Shown: positions 43,603 through 59,612 of the stretch, piece after piece
Layout of the letters: each line of letters opens with the position of its first letter
Numbering within the stretch: the first letter of the stretch is position 1
Origin: Streptomyces sp. CG1
GTDB lineage: Bacteria; Actinomycetota; Actinomycetes; Streptomycetales; Streptomycetaceae
Length of the DNA: 64,000 nt
Direction: 5' to 3'
NCBI RefSeq assembly: GCF_041080625.1
Contig: NZ_CP163518.1
Coordinates: forward strand, 10,471,501-10,535,500
The notes under the pieces: generated by a model
Database searches by the model: none
Told to the model about the DNA's origin: nothing
Seen by the model: only the letters and a program-made list of their open reading frames with translations
Position numbers and translations under genes: made by a program

Positions 43603-43876
43603 TCAGAGTTGGGCGACGATGTCGAAGTCGAAGGCGTCCGCCCGTGCCAGGTACAGCCGTTGGTGGAGATGGTTGCCCTGCAGCCGCAGCAAGCCCCGAG
43701 GTCCCTCGTAGGTGACCGTGCCCTCCATCGCGCACATGGCGTCCACGTCCAGCGACCGCGCCCGCTCGACCAGTGCCGCCAGCAGCCGTACTCCTTCGAA
43801 ACACGACTCGCCGAGGCTCCCCACGACCGGGGCATCGAAGCCGAATCGGGCCGCGTAACGATTCCTAATCTCTTTG

Positions 43877-45067
43877 TCAAGCAGCGTTCGTGACGGGGGG
43901 TATGGGTTCGTAGCACCGCCCGTCGCGCAACAGGGCCCACAGGACGTTGACCCGGCGGCGGGCAAGGGCGAGGACGGCCTGGGTGTGCCGCTTGCCTTCG
44001 GCGCGTTTGCGGTCGTAGAAGCGGCGGGACTCGTCACAGCAGCGGATGCTGATCAGCGCGGAGGTGTAGAAGACGCGCTGGAGTCGACGACTGTAACGTC
44101 TGGGCCGGTGCAGATTTCCGCTGATCTTGCCCGAGTCGCGCGGAGCTGGGGCGACGCCGGCGAACCCGGCGAGGCGGTCCGGGCTCTCGAAAGCCGTCAT
44201 GTCGCCGCCGGTGGCGGCGAGGAACTCGGCGCCGAGCAGGGGCCCGATGCCGGGCATGCTCGCGATCACCTCGGCGTGCTTGTGCTCGCGAAACCGCGCC
44301 TCGATGAGCTTGTCGGTTTCGGCGATCTGCTCGTTGAGGCGCATCACCTCCTTGGCGAGCGTGTGCACGAGCTGGGCCGTCGGCTTCTCCCCGGTCGCGC
44401 TGGTGTGCTGGCTCTCGGCGGCCGCCAGGGCTTTCTCGGCAAGCTCGGCAGCACCGCGGACTTTCCGGTTACGCAGCCAGGTCTCCAGCCTCCGGGCCCC
44501 GGTCCTGCGGATGGCGGCTGGGGTCTGGTAGCCGGTCAGCAGGATCAGCGGGCCGGTATTCGTGAGGTCCAGAGCCCGGTCCAGAGCGGGAAAGATGCTG
44601 GTGAGGTGATTGTGGAGCCGGTTGATCACGCGGGTGCGGTCGTCGGCGAGGTCGCGGCGATGGCCGGTGTGGACCTTGATCTCGGCGACCAGTTCGTCAC
44701 CGGGAAGCAAGGGTTGCAGGTCCCGGCGGAGCCGGGTCTGGTCGGCGATGATCGCGGCGTCCTTGGCGTCGGTCTTGCCTTCACCCCGGTAGCCCTCGGA
44801 GGCGCGGCTGACGGCTCGGCCGGGGATGTAGAGCGTGTGCTGTCCGTGGTTGAGCAGCAGATCGATCAGCAGGGCGGCGCCGCCATCGGCCAGGTCGATG
44901 CCCCAGGTGACCTCATCGCCCAGGGCGAGGACGTCGGCCAGGAGCTTCAGCAACTCCGTCTCGTCGTTGGCCACTCGCCGCGACAGCAGCCGCTTGCCGG
45001 TGTCGTCGATCACCACGCAGTGGTGATGGGTCCTGCCGGCATCGATGCCGGCCCAGATCGCTGTCAC
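43877..45067 (-). CDS. IS110-family transposase/recombinase, copy 1, 396 aa
   Basis: Complete protein. The RuvC-like DEDD domain starts IWAGIDAGRTHHHCVVIDD, with WGIDLADGGAALLIDLLLNH and KTDAKDAAIIADQ supplying further acidic residues. A coiled linker follows, then the Transposase_20 domain (EVIASMPGIGPLLGAEFLAA, RLAGFAGVAPAPRDSGKISG) with a Ser in YTSALISIRCC as the likely nucleophile. The GTG start has GGAGAG upstream. It is about 70 percent identical by eye to copy 2 and appears intact, so it may be functional. Confidence 0.93.
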   Translation of the reverse strand: MTAIWAGIDAGRTHHHCVVIDDTGKRLLSRRVANDETELLKLLADVLALGDEVTWGIDLADGGAALLIDLLLNHGQHTLYIPGRAVSRASEGYRGEGKTDAKDAAIIADQTRLRRDLQPLLPGDELVAEIKVHTGHRRDLADDRTRVINRLHNHLTSIFPALDRALDLTNTGPLILLTGYQTPAAIRRTGARRLETWLRNRKVRGAAELAEKALAAAESQHTSATGEKPTAQLVHTLAKEVMRLNEQIAETDKLIEARFREHKHAEVIASMPGIGPLLGAEFLAATGGDMTAFESPDRLAGFAGVAPAPRDSGKISGNLHRPRRYSRRLQRVFYTSALISIRCCDESRRFYDRKRAEGKRHTQAVLALARRRVNVLWALLRDGRCYEPIPPVTNAA

Positions 45068-45292
45068 GCGCTCTCCACGGGTCGCTTGCTTACCTGCACC
45101 ACAGACGACCTCGCTGGCGAGTCCCTACTCAGCGATCGGATCGCAATTCCTAATCAGCAGCCGAGTCGTCGGGGGGTGTCGGGCGGCGAATCGTAGGAAG
45201 CCACGGACGGCAGACCACTGAAAGCCACACCCGACACCCCTGGGTGAGCCAACCCTACGAATGGCTCGCTCATCCCGATCAACAAGGTAGGG
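45068..45292 (-). ncRNA. Predicted bridge RNA of IS110 copy 1 (left-end non-coding region)
   Basis: Read on the minus strand, a perfect 11-bp stem (arms 45230-45240 and 45173-45183) encloses a loop that contains TTCAGTGGTC (45222-45213). The same 10 bases form the host flank at the left junction (45301-45292). A second loop region contains GATTAGGAAT (45155-45146), identical to the element right end (43870-43861), and TAGGGAC, the complement of the left end GTCCCTA. These are the target and donor guides expected of an IS110 bridge RNA. The exact RNA ends are unknown. Confidence 0.75.
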
Positions 45293-46193
45293 ACCACTGA
45301 AGTCCAGGCTCTCGGCGGTCCCCAGTGTCTCGAAGTACCCGGCCGTCGCCCACAGTCCCTCGGTGGCCTCCGCGCCGGTGGCCAGCAGGATGTTCTCGTC
45401 CATGTGCGTGCTCAGCCGCAGACACCGCTGGTGCAGCCCGTAGGCGGCGAACGCCCGGTTGAAGCGCGCCGCGTCATCCCCGACCAGCAGCATCAGCACC
45501 GCGTCCGCCTCGCACCGCTCGATCCGGCGCAGCACCGAGGCGAACTCGTACGTCCCCAGCGGTACGAAGACCTCGTCCCGTACCCGGCCGCCACAGGCTC
45601 GTGCGTACCCGCGCGCGGCCCGGGCGGTCACGTGCGGCCACACGTAGTCGTTGCCCACCGTGCACCAGCGCCGAGCGCCGGCCGTCTCGGCCAGCAGCCG
45701 CATCGCCGGCAGCAACTGCGCTGCGTCCGTCTCGCCGGTCAGGAACACCCCGGGCGTGCGCTCACCGCCCTCGTACTGGGCGGTATAGACGTACGGCACC
45801 CTGCCCGCGATGCGCGGCAGCAGTGCTCTGCGCACCGCCGAGGTGTGCCAGCCCACCACCGCGTCCACCGCGCGAAGGGACACCAGGGCCTCGACCTCGG
45901 CCGCAGTCCGCTCCGGCGGAGCTCCGCCGTCCACAACGATCAGCCGGACCTCCTGGTCCAGCACGCCGCCCGCGGCGTTCAGCTCCTCCACGGCCAGTTG
46001 GGCGGCCAGCTCGCACGACGGGCCGAAGACTCCGGCCGGACCCTGCAACGGCACGACCAGCGCCACGTTCAGGGTCCGGCTCGAGTTGCCGTTCCTCGAT
46101 GGGGGCAGCGGATACACCAGGCCACCTCCGTGAGGGCATCAGGGGCATGCGGATCGCGGTCCCGGCCCCAGCGCCCTCGCGGAGGCTCGTAAT

Positions 46194-48930: not shown

Positions 48931-50706
48931 TCACCCTCTCGTGCCACATCTGGTTCCAGTGATGGCCGACTTGCGGCTCACCGCAGCGGCCGCGCGGTGT
49001 CGGCGACGCGTGAATCGTGGCTCTTCCAAGATTTCCGTGAAGCCGATCACGGGGCTGCCGGGGCCGTGACTCTGTGTTGTCGGCGGTCGGCGGTCGGCGG
49101 TCGGCGGTCGGCGGTCGGCGGCGGCGAGGAGAACTCGCTTGCGGAGCAAGCGATGTCCGGCACGGCCCGCCATCTGCCGCTTCAGGAACTTGATGTCCGT
49201 GACTCTGCCCTCGACACAGCCGGAGCTCCACTGAGTGCTCAGGCCGAGGGCGACCGCGTCGAGAGCCTTCACGAGGCCGTCGGCGAAGTTGCGCAGTCCG
49301 TGGCTCTCGTCCGTGCGAGCGTTGGCGATCCGCTGGGGCAGTCGCTCCGCGCTGCGGGCGGCCATCATGGCGGCGAAGGACCGCACATGTCCGGACGCGG
49401 CCTCCAACTCCGGGCAGTGGGCCAGGATTTCCTTGAGTATTTGCCGGTCGTCCTCGCTCACGCGGTCGGGGCGGCGGGTGATCCAGCCGGTCACCTTGCG
49501 CACACCCGGCGGCTTCGGCAGGGGTGGGTCGCCCGGGGTGCGGTGGAACCGTTGCAGGTAGTCGCGCACAGCGGAGCAGGAGCCGGTGAAGCCGCGTTCG
49601 CGGAGCTCGGCGTGGAGCTTGACCGCGACGGTGTGCCCTTCACACCATCGTTGGTGGAGGTAGGGCTTGTGGGGGTTCAGGATGCTGGGGAGGTTCTGCC
49701 AGCGGCCGGTGGCGAGTTCCTCCCAGGTGGCAGCCCGGGCATAGCGTCGCACGGTGTTCACGGCCAGACTCAGTTGGCGGGAGACCGCGCGGATACCCAT
49801 CCCCTGGCTGAGGAGGTCGTGCACGGCGGTGTGATGCCGTTCGACCCGGGCGGCCAGACGGCCCGCGTGTGAGACGGGCGGGCGCACGACGTCGGGTGCC
49901 GTCCCCGGGGCAGGAGCGGGGTCACGCAGGCAGGCTTGGTCCCCGCTGACCAGGCGTTTCACCGCCTCGGCGAGGTTGTGCCAGATGTGCCACAAGTCCG
50001 CCACCTGGACAGCATCCGGCGCTGCGGTGCGGCCGCCGTCGGCATAACAGCCGCCACGGTCACGGCAAATGATCTCCACGCCGGGGTGCTCGGTGAGCCA
50101 GGCGGCGAACGAGGCGGCCTCCCGCTCGGGCAGCAGGTCGACCGGGGCACGGGTCTCGCAGTCGACCAGGACCGTGCCGTAGCTGTGGTGCCCCTTGCGC
50201 AGGGCGAACTCGTCGACCCCGAGCACCCGGGGTGTCTCCGCGGACGGGGCGGACAGACCCATGGCCAGGGACAGCAGGGTCGTCCCGCTGACCGACACCG
50301 GAAGCTTCGCGGCGAGCCGCTCGCCGGCCCGACCGGCCAGCGCCACAGCCACCACGCTCAACAAGCCCTTCAGCTGCGGCGTCCGCCGCCCGTAGCGCAC
50401 AGTCAGCCCGTCCACCTGCTCGGCGAACGTCACCCGCGTACATTCGGGCGCACCGCAGAACAGGCGTCGGACCGTCAGCTCGATGCGCACCTGCCGCCCG
50501 CCGACCGCACCGTCCGCGAGGCGGCGCTGATACCCGCTGTGGCGCCGCACCGACGGCGTTCCGCAGTCGGGACACGGCATCGCCAGCGACTCCGAGGTTC
50601 TGGCCACGATGCACAATACCCCGCCCTCTGGGCTCACTTGCTTCACCAGCACCCCGTCCAGGTGCGGCAACACGGCCTTCAGGAGCTCCTCACACTCGGC
50701 CAGCAT
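48931..50706 (-). CDS. ISL3-family transposase with an aberrant C-terminal extension
   Basis: The conserved protein comprises an N-terminal zinc ribbon (CPDCGTPSVRRHSGYQRRLA, then CGAPECTRVTF), the DDE core (VLGVDEFALRKGHHSYGTVL, EIICRDRGGCYADG, VADLWHIWHNLAEAV), a helix-turn-helix, and the C-terminal catalytic Glu region ending RMAGRAGHRLLRKRVLLA-like. The normal stop should follow at once. Instead a heptanucleotide tandem repeat (49081-49121) adds repeated DRRPPTA units, and the frame runs through the inverted repeat 88 bases into host DNA. The domain core is intact. The ATG follows GGAAGAG. Confidence 0.92.
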   Translation of the reverse strand: MLAECEELLKAVLPHLDGVLVKQVSPEGGVLCIVARTSESLAMPCPDCGTPSVRRHSGYQRRLADGAVGGRQVRIELTVRRLFCGAPECTRVTFAEQVDGLTVRYGRRTPQLKGLLSVVAVALAGRAGERLAAKLPVSVSGTTLLSLAMGLSAPSAETPRVLGVDEFALRKGHHSYGTVLVDCETRAPVDLLPEREAASFAAWLTEHPGVEIICRDRGGCYADGGRTAAPDAVQVADLWHIWHNLAEAVKRLVSGDQACLRDPAPAPGTAPDVVRPPVSHAGRLAARVERHHTAVHDLLSQGMGIRAVSRQLSLAVNTVRRYARAATWEELATGRWQNLPSILNPHKPYLHQRWCEGHTVAVKLHAELRERGFTGSCSAVRDYLQRFHRTPGDPPLPKPPGVRKVTGWITRRPDRVSEDDRQILKEILAHCPELEAASGHVRSFAAMMAARSAERLPQRIANARTDESHGLRNFADGLVKALDAVALGLSTQWSSGCVEGRVTDIKFLKRQMAGRAGHRLLRKRVLLAAADRRPPTADRRPPTTQSHGPGSPVIGFTEILEEPRFTRRRHRAAAAVSRKSAITGTRCGTRG

Positions 50707-56844: not shown

Positions 56845-56934
56845 GGAGCCTCGGGTCATGGTCGGGTGCCAGCGTCCGACTGTCCCGTCAGCCGGTTCAC
56901 GGCTCAGTTACCGGTTCCAGGCCACTCAAACTTC

Positions 56935-57163
56935 CCTACGTTCTTCTCTGGGACCGGGCGAGCCCTTCGCGTGGTTCTCCCACCCAGGGACGCCGGCGTG
57001 GCTTTCAAACTTCTACCGCTTGTGGCTTCCATCGATTGGCCGCCCGACGCCCCACGACGACTCGGCTGCAATTAGGAATTGCGAATGATCGCTCCGTAGG
57101 GAATCGACATCGAGGTCGTCCGTCGGGAGGCATCCAGCAGACCCCATCACACGGAGGCATTAC
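56935..57163 (+). ncRNA. Predicted bridge RNA of IS110 copy 2
   Basis: Homologous to the copy 1 left end but with changed loops. The target loop contains TCAAACTTC (57005-57013), identical to the host flank at the left junction (56926-56934). The donor loop contains ATTAGGAATT (57071-57080) and, as reverse complement, TTCCCTACG (57095-57103), identical to the element left junction (56932-56940). The stem (about 56987-56998 with 57041-57053) is imperfect. The differences from copy 1 track the different insertion site. Confidence 0.72.
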
Positions 57164-58360
57164 ATGGCCGCGATCTGGGCCGGCATCGACGCAGGCAAGA
57201 ACCACCACCACTGCGTCGCGATTGACGACAGCGGCCGCCGGCTGCTGTCCCGACGCGTCGCCAACGACGAGCCCGAACTCCTCGAACTCCTCAACGGCGT
57301 CCTGGCCCTGGGTGACGAGGTGACCTGGGGAATCGACCTGGCTGATGGCGGAGCCGCCCGCGCCATTGCGCTCCTCCTCAACCACGACCAGCTGGTCCAC
57401 TACATCTCCGGCCGGGTCATCCACCGCGCCTCCGAGAGCTACCGCGGCGAAGGCAAGACCGACGCCAAGGACGCCGCCGTCATCGCCGACCAGGTCCGCA
57501 TCCGCCGCGACCTGCACCCGTTACGCGCCGACGACGAGACCGTCATCGACCTCAAGATCCTCACCGGCCGCCGAATGGACCTGGTCGCCGACCGCACCCG
57601 CACCGTCAACCGGCTCCGGGCCCAGCTGACCGGCATCTTCCCCGGCCTGGAACGGGCCCTGGACCTCACCAACACGGGCCCGCCCACCCTGCTGACCGGC
57701 TACCAGACTCCAGCTGCACTGCGTCGCCTCGGCACCAAGCGCCTGACGACCTGGCTCCGCAACCGCAAGGTCGTCCGCGCCGACCAGCTCGCCGAGACCG
57801 CGGTCCAGGCCGCCGAGCGCCAGCACACCAGCCTGCCCGGAGAGAAGCTGACTGCGCAGATGGTGCACACCCTGGCGAAGGAGGTGATAGCCCTCAACCG
57901 GCAGGTCGCCGAGCTCGAAAAGCTCATCGAAGCCCGGGTTCGCGACCACCGCCACTTCGACGTGATCACCAGCATGCCCGGCCTCGGCATCATTCTCGGC
58001 GCCGAGTTCCTCGCCGCCACCGGCGGCGACATGGCCACGTTCGGAACTCCGGACCGCCTCGCTGGCTTCGGCGGCGTCGCACCGGTCCTGCGCGACTCCG
58101 GCAAGATCAGCGGCAACCTGCGGCGCCCGCAACGCTACAATCGCCGCCTCCAGCGCGTCCTCTACACCTCCGCGCTCTGCAGCATCCGCCGATGCGAGGA
58201 ATCCCGCCGGTTCTACGATCGCAAACGAGCCGAGGGTAAGCGCCATGCCCAGGTTGCCCTCGCCCTCGCTCGCCGCCGCGTCAACGTCCTCTGGGCCCTC
58301 CTACGCGACGGACGGTGCTACGAACTCACGCCGCCCGTCGCTCTCACCGCTAGACAATGA
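57164..58360 (+). CDS. IS110-family transposase/recombinase, copy 2, 398 aa
   Basis: Full-length homologue of copy 1 with the same landmarks: IWAGIDAGKNHHHCVAIDDS, WGIDLADGGAARAIALLLNH, KTDAKDAAVIADQ, then VITSMPGLGIILGAEFLAAT and YTSALCSIRRC with the probable nucleophile Ser. ACGGAGG precedes the ATG. The end differs from copy 1: the ancestral TGA at CTTGA has become CTAGA, so the protein is extended by a few residues (ARQ). The protein looks functional even if its right end is not. Confidence 0.93.
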   Translation: MAAIWAGIDAGKNHHHCVAIDDSGRRLLSRRVANDEPELLELLNGVLALGDEVTWGIDLADGGAARAIALLLNHDQLVHYISGRVIHRASESYRGEGKTDAKDAAVIADQVRIRRDLHPLRADDETVIDLKILTGRRMDLVADRTRTVNRLRAQLTGIFPGLERALDLTNTGPPTLLTGYQTPAALRRLGTKRLTTWLRNRKVVRADQLAETAVQAAERQHTSLPGEKLTAQMVHTLAKEVIALNRQVAELEKLIEARVRDHRHFDVITSMPGLGIILGAEFLAATGGDMATFGTPDRLAGFGGVAPVLRDSGKISGNLRRPQRYNRRLQRVLYTSALCSIRRCEESRRFYDRKRAEGKRHAQVALALARRRVNVLWALLRDGRCYELTPPVALTARQ

Positions 58361-58420
58361 GACGAGCTCACCCCAACCTGACCGGCCTGCCGGGTTCCCC
58401 CGTCAGGCCCGTGCGGCGAC

Positions 58421-59278
58421 CTACAACGCGTCGCGCACGACGTCCGGCTTGTTGCTGATGATGCCGTCCACTCCCGCCCGAGTGGCCTTGACCGCTGTGG
58501 GGCCGTCATCGACGGTCCAGGTGTAGACCGTCATCCGGCGGCCATGCGGGCCCTTGAGCGCGTGTACGGCGGAGACGTAGTCCGCGGTGGTCGACTCGTA
58601 CTGGGGGTTGATCTGGTCGGCGAACGCGGCGTACTTGGGGAGTTCGGCGACCGTGGGGTTGCCGAGGAAGCCGGTCTTGATGGCCGGGTTCAGGCGGTGG
58701 ACCTTCTTGATCGCGTCAGCGTTGAAGCTCTGGATGATCAGGCGGCGCTTGAGGTGCCCCCGGTCGAGCCAGCCGTCATGACGCAGTTCCCGGAGGGCTT
58801 GCCGCTCGATACCGGGGTAGAGCTCCGGGTTGTTGAGATCCAGCAGGAGCTTCTGGCCGTTGTCCTCGACCTCTTCCAGGTACTCCTCCAGGGTCGGCAC
58901 CCGCTCGCCCTTGAATTTCGCGCCGAACCAGCTGCCCGCGTCCAGCTTCTCGATCTCCCGGAGCGTGAAGTCGCCGACGTTCCACGAGGAGCGGTCCGGG
59001 AAGACCTTCTTGACGTTGGTGGTCCTGGCCAGCGAGGTGTCATGCAGGACGACCAGCTCGCCGTCCTTAGTGCGCTGGACGTTGTTCTCGACCCACGCGA
59101 TCCCGAGCCGGTCGGCCGCGGCGAGGGTGTTCTCCGGGGCGTAGGCGGAGGCGCCTCGGTTGGCGACGACGACCGGGCTGTGCTGCCCTGCCGTGGCCTG
59201 GGCCGTGACTGCGGGGGCCGCCAGTGCGATCAGCCCCGTCACGGTGATGGTGGCAAGGGCAGCGGGACGCAACGGCAT
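58421..59278 (-). CDS. Secreted GDPD-like protein with altered catalytic residues, 285 aa
   Basis: A TIM-barrel glycerophosphodiester phosphodiesterase family member with a signal peptide (ALATITVTGLIALAAPAVTA). Conserved parts are RGASAYAPENTLAAADRLGI, TKDGELVVLHDTSLARTTNV and TVYTWTVDDGPTAVKATRAG. The catalytic His of HRGAS is Asn (VVVANRGAS), and the metal-binding ExD reads ENN (WVENNVQRT). Both changes are single-base substitutions from the consensus. Hydrolysis of glycerophosphodiesters is therefore doubtful. GAGGAG lies 6 bases before the ATG at 59278, which selects this start over 59284. Confidence 0.88.
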   Translation of the reverse strand: MPLRPAALATITVTGLIALAAPAVTAQATAGQHSPVVVANRGASAYAPENTLAAADRLGIAWVENNVQRTKDGELVVLHDTSLARTTNVKKVFPDRSSWNVGDFTLREIEKLDAGSWFGAKFKGERVPTLEEYLEEVEDNGQKLLLDLNNPELYPGIERQALRELRHDGWLDRGHLKRRLIIQSFNADAIKKVHRLNPAIKTGFLGNPTVAELPKYAAFADQINPQYESTTADYVSAVHALKGPHGRRMTVYTWTVDDGPTAVKATRAGVDGIISNKPDVVRDAL

Positions 59279-59499
59279 CGTCATCTCCTCACACTCACTG
59301 GGGTGTGATCATCACCCCCCCTGCTGGGACAACGACATACGCACGGGGCGGCAACGGCTCCGTCCCGCGTACAACGCCCCAATATCGACGCGTGACTTGA
59401 CCACGACAAACGGATCGTGGCCAGCCCGGCAACCCAGAAGTCCCGCAGGGCACACCCGTCGGACTGGATCCAACCGGACAACGGGATGGATGCAGCCTC
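59279..59499. other. Short intergenic stretch upstream of the GDPD-like gene
   Basis: No gene is seen. It probably carries the promoter of the GDPD-like gene, and it ends at the IS110 right-end relic. Confidence 0.4.
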
Positions 59500-59571
59500 G
59501 GTGCCCGATATCTCTGCGGTGTGGCGACCAGCTCTACCTGAGGCAACGGCTTGACAACCAGATTAGGAATC
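59500..59571 (+). mobile_element. Solo right-end relic of an IS110 element related to copies 1 and 2
   Basis: TTGACAACCAGATTAGGAAT then C (59551-59571) matches the copy 1 right end (TTGACAAAGAGATTAGGAAT then C) except for two bases. The preceding bases read RPALPEATA and the TGA stop, resembling the end of the transposase. The rest of the element is absent. It is either a third insertion or the displaced right end of copy 2. Confidence 0.65.
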
Positions 59572-59612
59572 GGTGGCACAGGACAAAGGGCTTCGACGTC
59601 GAGGCTGCGAGG

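Follow-up and report, generated by a model that had tools for sequence, protein, structure and literature searches.

The window, by which we mean the whole stretch of 64,000 nucleotides of Streptomyces sp. CG1 that was analysed, contains two elements of the IS110 group, copy 1 and copy 2 (Table 1). Both transposases hold PF01548 (the DEDD N-terminal domain) and PF02371 (the Transposase_20 C-terminal domain) above cut-off. A G--P----SG motif has been described in the C-terminal part of IS110-group proteins (PMC11187229), and it is present as GVAPVLRDSG in copy 2 and GVAPAPRDSG in copy 1. The relatives of solved structure that a sequence search brings up (E up to 0.01) are ISCro4 (9t56) and IS621 (8wt6), with E values of about 1e-9 to 7e-9. 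Upstream of the transposase is a long non-coding region for which the consensus fold of 20 relatives predicts an RNA with two stems and internal loops. RNA-guided recombination would be the predicted activity of both copies. The preliminary description of the window had said that their left ends align base by base. This was loosely put: the transposases are 74% identical, and the two copies are different elements. The window also has a large ORF at 48931-50706 (minus strand), the product of which presumably resembles an ISL3-type transposase.

Table 1. Features of the two IS110-group elements, in positions of the window
Feature	Position	Strand	Basis or remark
Copy 1, IS110-group element lacking a passenger; seven copies of it in the chromosome	43860..45291	-	joined flanks restore host reading frame
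Copy 1 left target TTCAGTGGTC, core TC at 45293-45292	45292..45301	-	read in the sequence
Copy 1 left target guide TCAGTGGTC	45213..45221	-	read in the sequence; identical to flank TCAGTGGTC
Copy 1 right target guide CCTACGA	45191..45197	-	predicts TCGTAGG; flank of the window copy is TCGTTAC
Copy 1 left donor guide ATTAGGAAT	45146..45154	-	read in the sequence
Copy 1 right donor guide GTAGGGA	45122..45128	-	read in the sequence
Copy 1 DEDD transposase/recombinase, 396 aa	43877..45067	-	PF01548 and PF02371
Copy 2, entire IS110-group element with its passenger, about 2.64 kb (predicted)	56935..59571	+	left-end motif; right-end motif and core; orthologous site empty in a second genome of the genus
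Copy 2 left target TCAAACTTC, last two bases being core TC (56933-56934)	56926..56934	+	equals guide at 57005-57013
Copy 2 region of the predicted bridge RNA, with internal loops in both stems and some degeneration of the first	56980..57124	+	consensus fold of 20 relatives
Copy 2 left target guide TCAAACTTC	57005..57013	+	9/9 with left flank; family-wide test
Copy 2 right target guide CCATCGA	57029..57035	+	pairs with TCGGTGG (59570-59576), one G-U
Copy 2 left donor guide ATTAGGAATT	57071..57080	+	against right end ATTAGGAATC, G-U at last position
Copy 2 right donor guide GTAGGGA	57096..57102	+	complement of TCCCTAC at left junction
Copy 2 DEDD transposase/recombinase, 398 aa	57164..58360	+	PF01548 and PF02371
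Glycerophosphodiester phosphodiesterase (GDPD) gene, putative passenger, 287 aa	58421..59284	-	PF03009, E 4.9e-41; between transposase and right end
Copy 2 right end: TTGACA (59551-59556), left donor ATTAGGAA (59562-59569), core TC (59570-59571)	59551..59571	+	right-end motif

The seven copies of the copy 1 element score equally against the query. In the window, a substrate-binding-protein gene is broken by copy 1 and its frame is restored when the flanks are joined, so this is not a harmless insertion. Insertion without duplication beyond the core is borne out by this restored frame and, at copy 2, by an empty site. If a plain insertion sequence is one that carries no genes besides those for transposition, copy 1 is such a sequence and copy 2 is not, since the GDPD gene lies within its ends.

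The extent of copy 2 deserves some attention. There is no right-end motif directly behind its transposase, which rules out a right end at that place. From 59548, however, GGCTTGACAACCAGATTAGGAATC and then GGTGGCACAGGACA are found; we take this to be the right end of copy 2, overlooked in the preliminary description. Three features concur here: the motif of the donor, TC as core, and the fit to the right guide by pairing. It could be argued that copy 2 is an ordinary insertion sequence truncated on the right, that the motif at 59562 comes from a lost element and that the GDPD gene is a mere neighbour. Most relatives of copy 2 do have the right end directly behind the transposase, and the RNA stem of copy 2 looks degenerate. 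Yet the right guide pairs with the sequence from 59570, related elements hold a different gene at this position and do so at several sites, and a second genome of the genus (G191, locus L261) has the site unoccupied: the orthologous left flank continues there straight into TCGGTGGCACAGGACA, which is the sequence from 59570 on. The left target at this empty site is without three bases, and the similarity of its right flank is short, covering only 14 bases beyond the core. Taking both sides together, we regard truncation as unlikely. Because the left flank joins TCGGTGGCACAGGACA directly in G191, we read the whole 2.64 kb with the GDPD gene as the insert. Copy 2 would then be a passenger-bearing member of its group, and the GDPD gene would move along with it.

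A query of 1155 bases made of the GDPD gene and the right end finds some match in 327 of 384 genomes. All of the matches listed outside the window's own genome stop at or before base 817 of the 1155, inside the gene, and the best has 83% identity. Behind the transposase of copy 2 (58340-58365), and likewise in two glyoxalase-carrying relatives (L160 and L035), are stretches that resemble a broken right end (CTAGACAATGA, GCATAGGAA). They suggest that passengers may be captured through the use of a second right end. As a separate matter, similar target pieces (GGCCACTCAAACTTC on the left; TCGGTGGCACA or TCGATGGCACG on the right) occur at 56920-56934 and 59570-59585 of the window and recur in other genomes (L146, L057, L144). 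These pieces may be the end of another mobile element. Guides of the copy 2 type may conceivably be aimed at the terminal repeats of an IS21-like element: repeats were suggestive in some flanks, but in an ORF listing for the flanks of six loci no transposase of that type could be named.

For comparison, 392 genomes of the genus were searched with the transposase; 91, the window's own included, had a match at E <= 1e-100. Extra loci were taken from named genomes (the 80 best of 233). Adequate coverage left 219 transposase matches, which gave 175 left junctions, 149 after deduplication, and 140 with a right end. The right end was sought within 5 kb or the available flank and had to have the same core as the left end, so that identity of the core at the two ends is true by construction. 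From transposase to right end the distance is below 60 nt in 123 of the 140 elements, 60-500 nt in none and above 500 nt in 17, and every one of these 17 holds an ORF of at least 85 codons. Ten such passenger ORFs, from nine elements, were scanned. Six have Pfam matches (glyoxalase-like, GNAT acetyltransferase, DUF4279, azurin-like, and SEC-C and SSB, both of these in L214), and four have none. Elements carrying the glyoxalase-like gene (L160, L154, L035, L165, L028, L026) have six right flanks that differ from one another, and this supports its transport as a unit. L035 has a left end that is partly duplicated in tandem. Outside these counts, a close relative (87%) in genome G732, L267, has a right-end motif 558 nt behind the aligned end of the transposase and is likely to be a further passenger element.

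The consensus RNA has two stems, and in both of them a short inner stem closes a large internal loop. The fold comprises 34 pairs, with changes on both sides at 6 of them. The two sides of the first loop are the left and right target guides, and those of the second loop are the donor guides. Taken singly, the RNA of copy 1 is more stable than its shuffles (z -2.72) and that of copy 2 is no better than its shuffles (z 0.67). Since, in addition, the first stem of copy 2 has one base missing and an A-C, this copy may be decaying. A scan of the window against Rfam gave no family at gathering score.

By our tallies the donor guides vary little and agree with sequences at the two ends of the element that carries them, namely ATTAGGAA (or ATTGGGAA) and CCTAC or TCTAC. 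In rows where it is readable, the right donor guide tracks CCTAC/TCTAC and the core changes between clades (tallies, with no permutation test). The presence of guides for ATTAGGAA and CCTAC is what one would expect if the second loop pairs with the joined ends of the element itself. The preliminary description had gone further and let the donor loop of each copy track its own left junction. This we reject, as the base that differs (T or G before TCCCTAC) is host DNA and lies outside the donor. Agreement at this base over 42 TC-core rows is 0.62 against 0.32 in shuffled data, and none of 2000 shuffles is as high; this agreement is a difference between clades, because 26 relatives of copy 2 all have a loop that predicts T, whereas 14 of their flanks have T and 12 have C. 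In the circle formed by copy 2, TTGACA would be 17 bases from TACGTT (56937-56942), a promoter-like pair. Of the 53 elements scored among the first 60, 51 have a spacing of 17 or 18.

We now turn to the target loop, for which the preliminary description had claimed that its bases follow the flank of each copy. It had placed TTCAGTGGTC at 45301-45292 (minus strand) and TCAAACTTC at 56926-56934, which is exact, and each string does appear again within the RNA predicted for the left end of its copy, in internal loop one (45221-45213; 57005-57013). The guide of copy 2 matches only 5 of 9 bases of the copy 1 flank by hand count. The term re-programmed is loosely used for copy 2, which belongs to a lineage of its own and is not copy 1 with new guides. 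On the right, the flank of copy 1 in the window fits its guide at the core and the next two bases only (TCGT). One identical guide is found in all seven copies of the copy 1 element, and the left flank fits at least 6 of its 7 non-core bases in 6 of the 7; in L003 the flank has one mismatch to the guide. L009, in the same genome and with core GC, has a different guide of its own that is matched 7/7. The seventh copy of the copy 1 element, the sister L008, has a left junction that is longer by two bases (TCAGTGGAATC), which looks as though some of the donor junction had stayed behind.

The preliminary description had taken two copies as strong evidence for programmable targeting. Two copies alone are insufficient for that. 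It had also named beforehand the comparison on which the idea should be judged, namely loop-flank identity against permuted flanks over many copies, and here the identity is clearly above chance, both over 87 distinct pairs and over 45 distinct guides. Loops were excised by a pattern blind to the flank. From 144 elements 112 were parsed, 101 of them with an 11-base loop, and these gave the 87 distinct pairs; 32 elements with loops unreadable by the pattern (19 of them with core GT) and 11 with other loop lengths stand outside the test. Of 9 non-core bases 6.49 match on average between left guide and flank, against 4.19 in permuted data (2000 permutations within core class, maximum 4.76). Per position the match is 0.84-0.90 over seven bases (null 0.36-0.79), so that it is limited to 7 bases and the 2-base core. 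All 7 bases match in 53 pairs, 6 in 22, 5 in one, 4 in two, and 3 or fewer in nine. On the right, the reverse complement of the guide agrees with the flank after the core at 0.94, 0.78, 0.80, 0.76, 0.52 and then 0.19 over 102 distinct pairs (null 0.36, 0.35, 0.34, 0.38, 0.27, 0.18). Left and right guide covariation together point to pairing of the first loop with both target strands.

Could such a match arise without direct pairing, simply because related elements share both loop and target? The elements are related, guides are shared (45 distinct in 87 pairs), and the permutations keep core class and not finer relatedness. Against this, with one row per distinct guide 6.16 of 7 bases still match, compared with 3.63 when permuted (sd 0.22, maximum 4.42). 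The match also ends at the edge of the guide, the two bases beyond it giving 0.15 and 0.24, near the null of 0.15 and 0.19, and each side of the target is fitted by an RNA stretch of its own. That clade structure produced the match as a by-product is thus very improbable. Another possibility is templated rewriting, in which the inserted element takes its loop sequence from the flank and the match is a consequence of landing, not its cause. Complete matches to the element's own flank in 53 of 87 pairs, and guides that differ between close relatives, would agree with this. However, seven copies of the copy 1 element at different sites have one unchanged guide, the mismatch of L003 was not copied into the guide, and over the whole set the match ends at guide length; we give rewriting hardly any credence. 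Covariation of guide and flank, as read from many copies, is strongly supported.

In four elements (L044, L059, L060, L062) the left target loop has one base more than the target, e. g. TCAGGC-T-GGC against TCAGGCGGC, possibly a bulged guide. A search over the class matched 18 of 394 genomes, 7 of those in the window's genus. Three copies in one genome outside the genus fit their shared left guide 7/7; the patterns were unable to read most of the other distant loci.

The core dinucleotide is TC, GC or GT according to clade: among 149 unique elements TC was found in 61, GC in 56, GT in 29, and other or misread cores in 3. On a quick transposase tree of 140 rows it changed at least 6 times. The complement of the core was present within the right guide in 107 of 107 rows, the first five positions being searched.

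At 78 of 140 sites a stop triplet (77 TGA and one TAA), read on the opposite strand, stands exactly 4 bases from the core. A simple open-frame test for stop targeting (in frame at 49 of 78, other frames 68 of 156) is too weak in high-GC DNA. We therefore dropped it for one in which a gene-like stop has an open frame of 50 codons and a codon-position GC signal. A Fisher p of 2.7e-10 rests on the weak open-frame rule and ignores relatedness. With the second test 31 of 74 testable stop triplets are gene-like, compared with 5.5% of 3645 flank TGAs. A gene-like start lies within 2-8 bases at 29 of 140 sites, compared with 5.1% of 5109 random windows. Of the 140 sites, 85 are neither stop nor start, eight are both, and 3 are untestable. 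A good part of the guides in the wider clade is reading gene boundaries. The site of copy 2 has TGA at the right offset, without an open frame of 60 codons, and for copies 1 and 2 targeting of start regions, i. e. insertion just upstream of a start codon, was not found.

In those left targets that have TCA (TGA in reverse) 4 bases from the core, a left donor end ATTAGGAA brings TTA at an equal offset. With TTA there, the interrupted gene would keep an in-frame stop at its old place and have only its last residue or two altered. At 18 chosen sites the frame was read into the element. At 17 of them it ends, with the offset unchanged, at a TAA that the element supplies through its donor end ATTAGGAA read in reverse, so that LTAYDH* becomes LTAYDS* and KKRAA* becomes KKRAS*. 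At the eighteenth, L066, where the donor end is ATTGGGAA, the frame is two codons longer. Five of the target ORFs at these 18 sites were scanned; DDE transposase, alpha/beta hydrolase, Ku and DUF5655 came out above cut-off and MFS_1 below. Donor ends with a stop go with 21 stop sites and 1 start site, those without a stop with 2 and 20, respectively (44 of 140 rows, with sites of both kinds, neither kind or untestable left out). Strong as this association is in counts, it is suggestive only, because it has few independent origins: the quick tree offers 2 supported independent pairs of donor end and target class, which cannot reach 0.05. A gene-like start is found in 14 of the 20 GT-core elements whose donor end lacks a stop. 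In fourteen GT-core elements (L076-L078, L080, L082-L085, L087-L089, L094, L097-L098) the targets resemble a reversed Shine-Dalgarno sequence, a spacer and ATG, and the right guide of L077, where readable, has a Shine-Dalgarno-like AAGGA.

Enrichment at stop codons could partly be survivorship. Insertions at stop codons would then reflect purifying selection against other insertions and not an evolved stop swap. Intragenic insertions would often be lost, and the small number of independent origins behind the donor-end association leaves room for this. On the other hand, the reversed stop that the guide spells has a fixed offset, which TTA in the donor end shares, and selection on landing sites alone does not account for this. 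We find the selection reading doubtful, while taking it seriously. According to a fuller scenario for this actinobacterial IS110 clade, guide and donor end co-evolved as a stop swap in which the guide seeks the last codons of a gene, sisters without TTA aim at starts, and repeated uptake of passengers has made these elements RNA-aimed carriers of cargo that do little harm. Our opinion on this scenario is evenly divided.

Several steps can be proposed for how such an element would work. In the circle, the joined right and left ends would form a promoter (TTGACA, 17-18 bases, TACNTT) that drives the left-end RNA; for copy 2 with its passenger the junction would read TTAGGAATC-CCTACG, with the GDPD gene inside the circle. 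The first RNA loop would pair with the target, over 7 bases and the core on the left and over the core and about 5 bases on the right, and the second loop with the ends of the element itself. The recombinase would then exchange strands at the 2-base core. The consensus RNA fold, the covariation of guide and target, the ends and the precise junctions of both window copies are the parts that sequence comparison supports; transcription, complex formation and strand exchange we infer. As a joint explanation, that both copies are IS110-group elements guided by a bridge RNA, that copy 2 bears a passenger, that guides in the clade often read gene boundaries and that the donor end swaps a stop for a stop appears very probable to us.

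IS117 belongs to the IS110 family. Like the IS117 mini-circle of Streptomyces coelicolor, which has orf1-3 (PMC2194683), copy 2 would be a transposable circle of Streptomyces with more than one ORF, a likeness at the level of description. In what has been described of the IS621/IS110 bridge RNA system (PMC11208160; see also PMC11208158) we recognize the DEDD recombinase, the left-end RNA with target and donor loops and the dinucleotide core; the circle-junction promoter of that system has a putative counterpart here. The seekRNA systems ISEc11 and ISEc21 likewise have a target-matching RNA in the non-coding region (PMC11187229). Covariation in IS110 elements has been reported by Durrant et al. 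(PMC11208160) from 5,511 target and 2,201 donor pairs, and natural reprogramming by Siddiquee et al. for seekRNA systems (PMC11187229). Hence the bridge-RNA mechanism, programmable targeting and natural reprogramming are known already from these two papers. Since covariation and natural reprogramming have been published, the elements discussed here are new members of a known system.

What sets them apart is the passengers, the core switches and the proposed stop swap. The recombinases of 396-398 aa are only distantly similar in sequence to IS621. The core of IS621 is CT, and with the non-CT cores that were tried it was generally less efficient (PMC11208160), whereas the clades described here have TC, GC or GT. 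The seekRNA study deals with other lineages, in four IS1111-type members and one IS110-type member (PMC11187229). A minority of the elements here have passenger genes; in the main text of PMC11208160 the word "passenger" occurs once, about Tn3, and in that of PMC11187229 it is absent, the cargo there being engineered. In open-access PMC literature, at the level of titles and the beginnings of abstracts and with subscription journals mostly absent, none of the papers listed dealt with stop-codon swapping by IS110 elements or with natural passengers of bridge-RNA elements. IS900 of Mycobacterium avium subsp. paratuberculosis is described as targeting translation initiation signals (Doran et al. 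1997). A similar habit seems to hold for much of the GT-core clade; copies 1 and 2 differ from it.

Taken together, these elements form a large natural series for tracing the guides, the core dinucleotide, the donor end and the class of target side by side. They offer natural TC, GC and GT cores and natural cargo-bearing elements of about 2.0-3.5 kb. The stop-codon swap, if true, would provide a rule, open to testing, by which a programmable transposon may spare its host harm.
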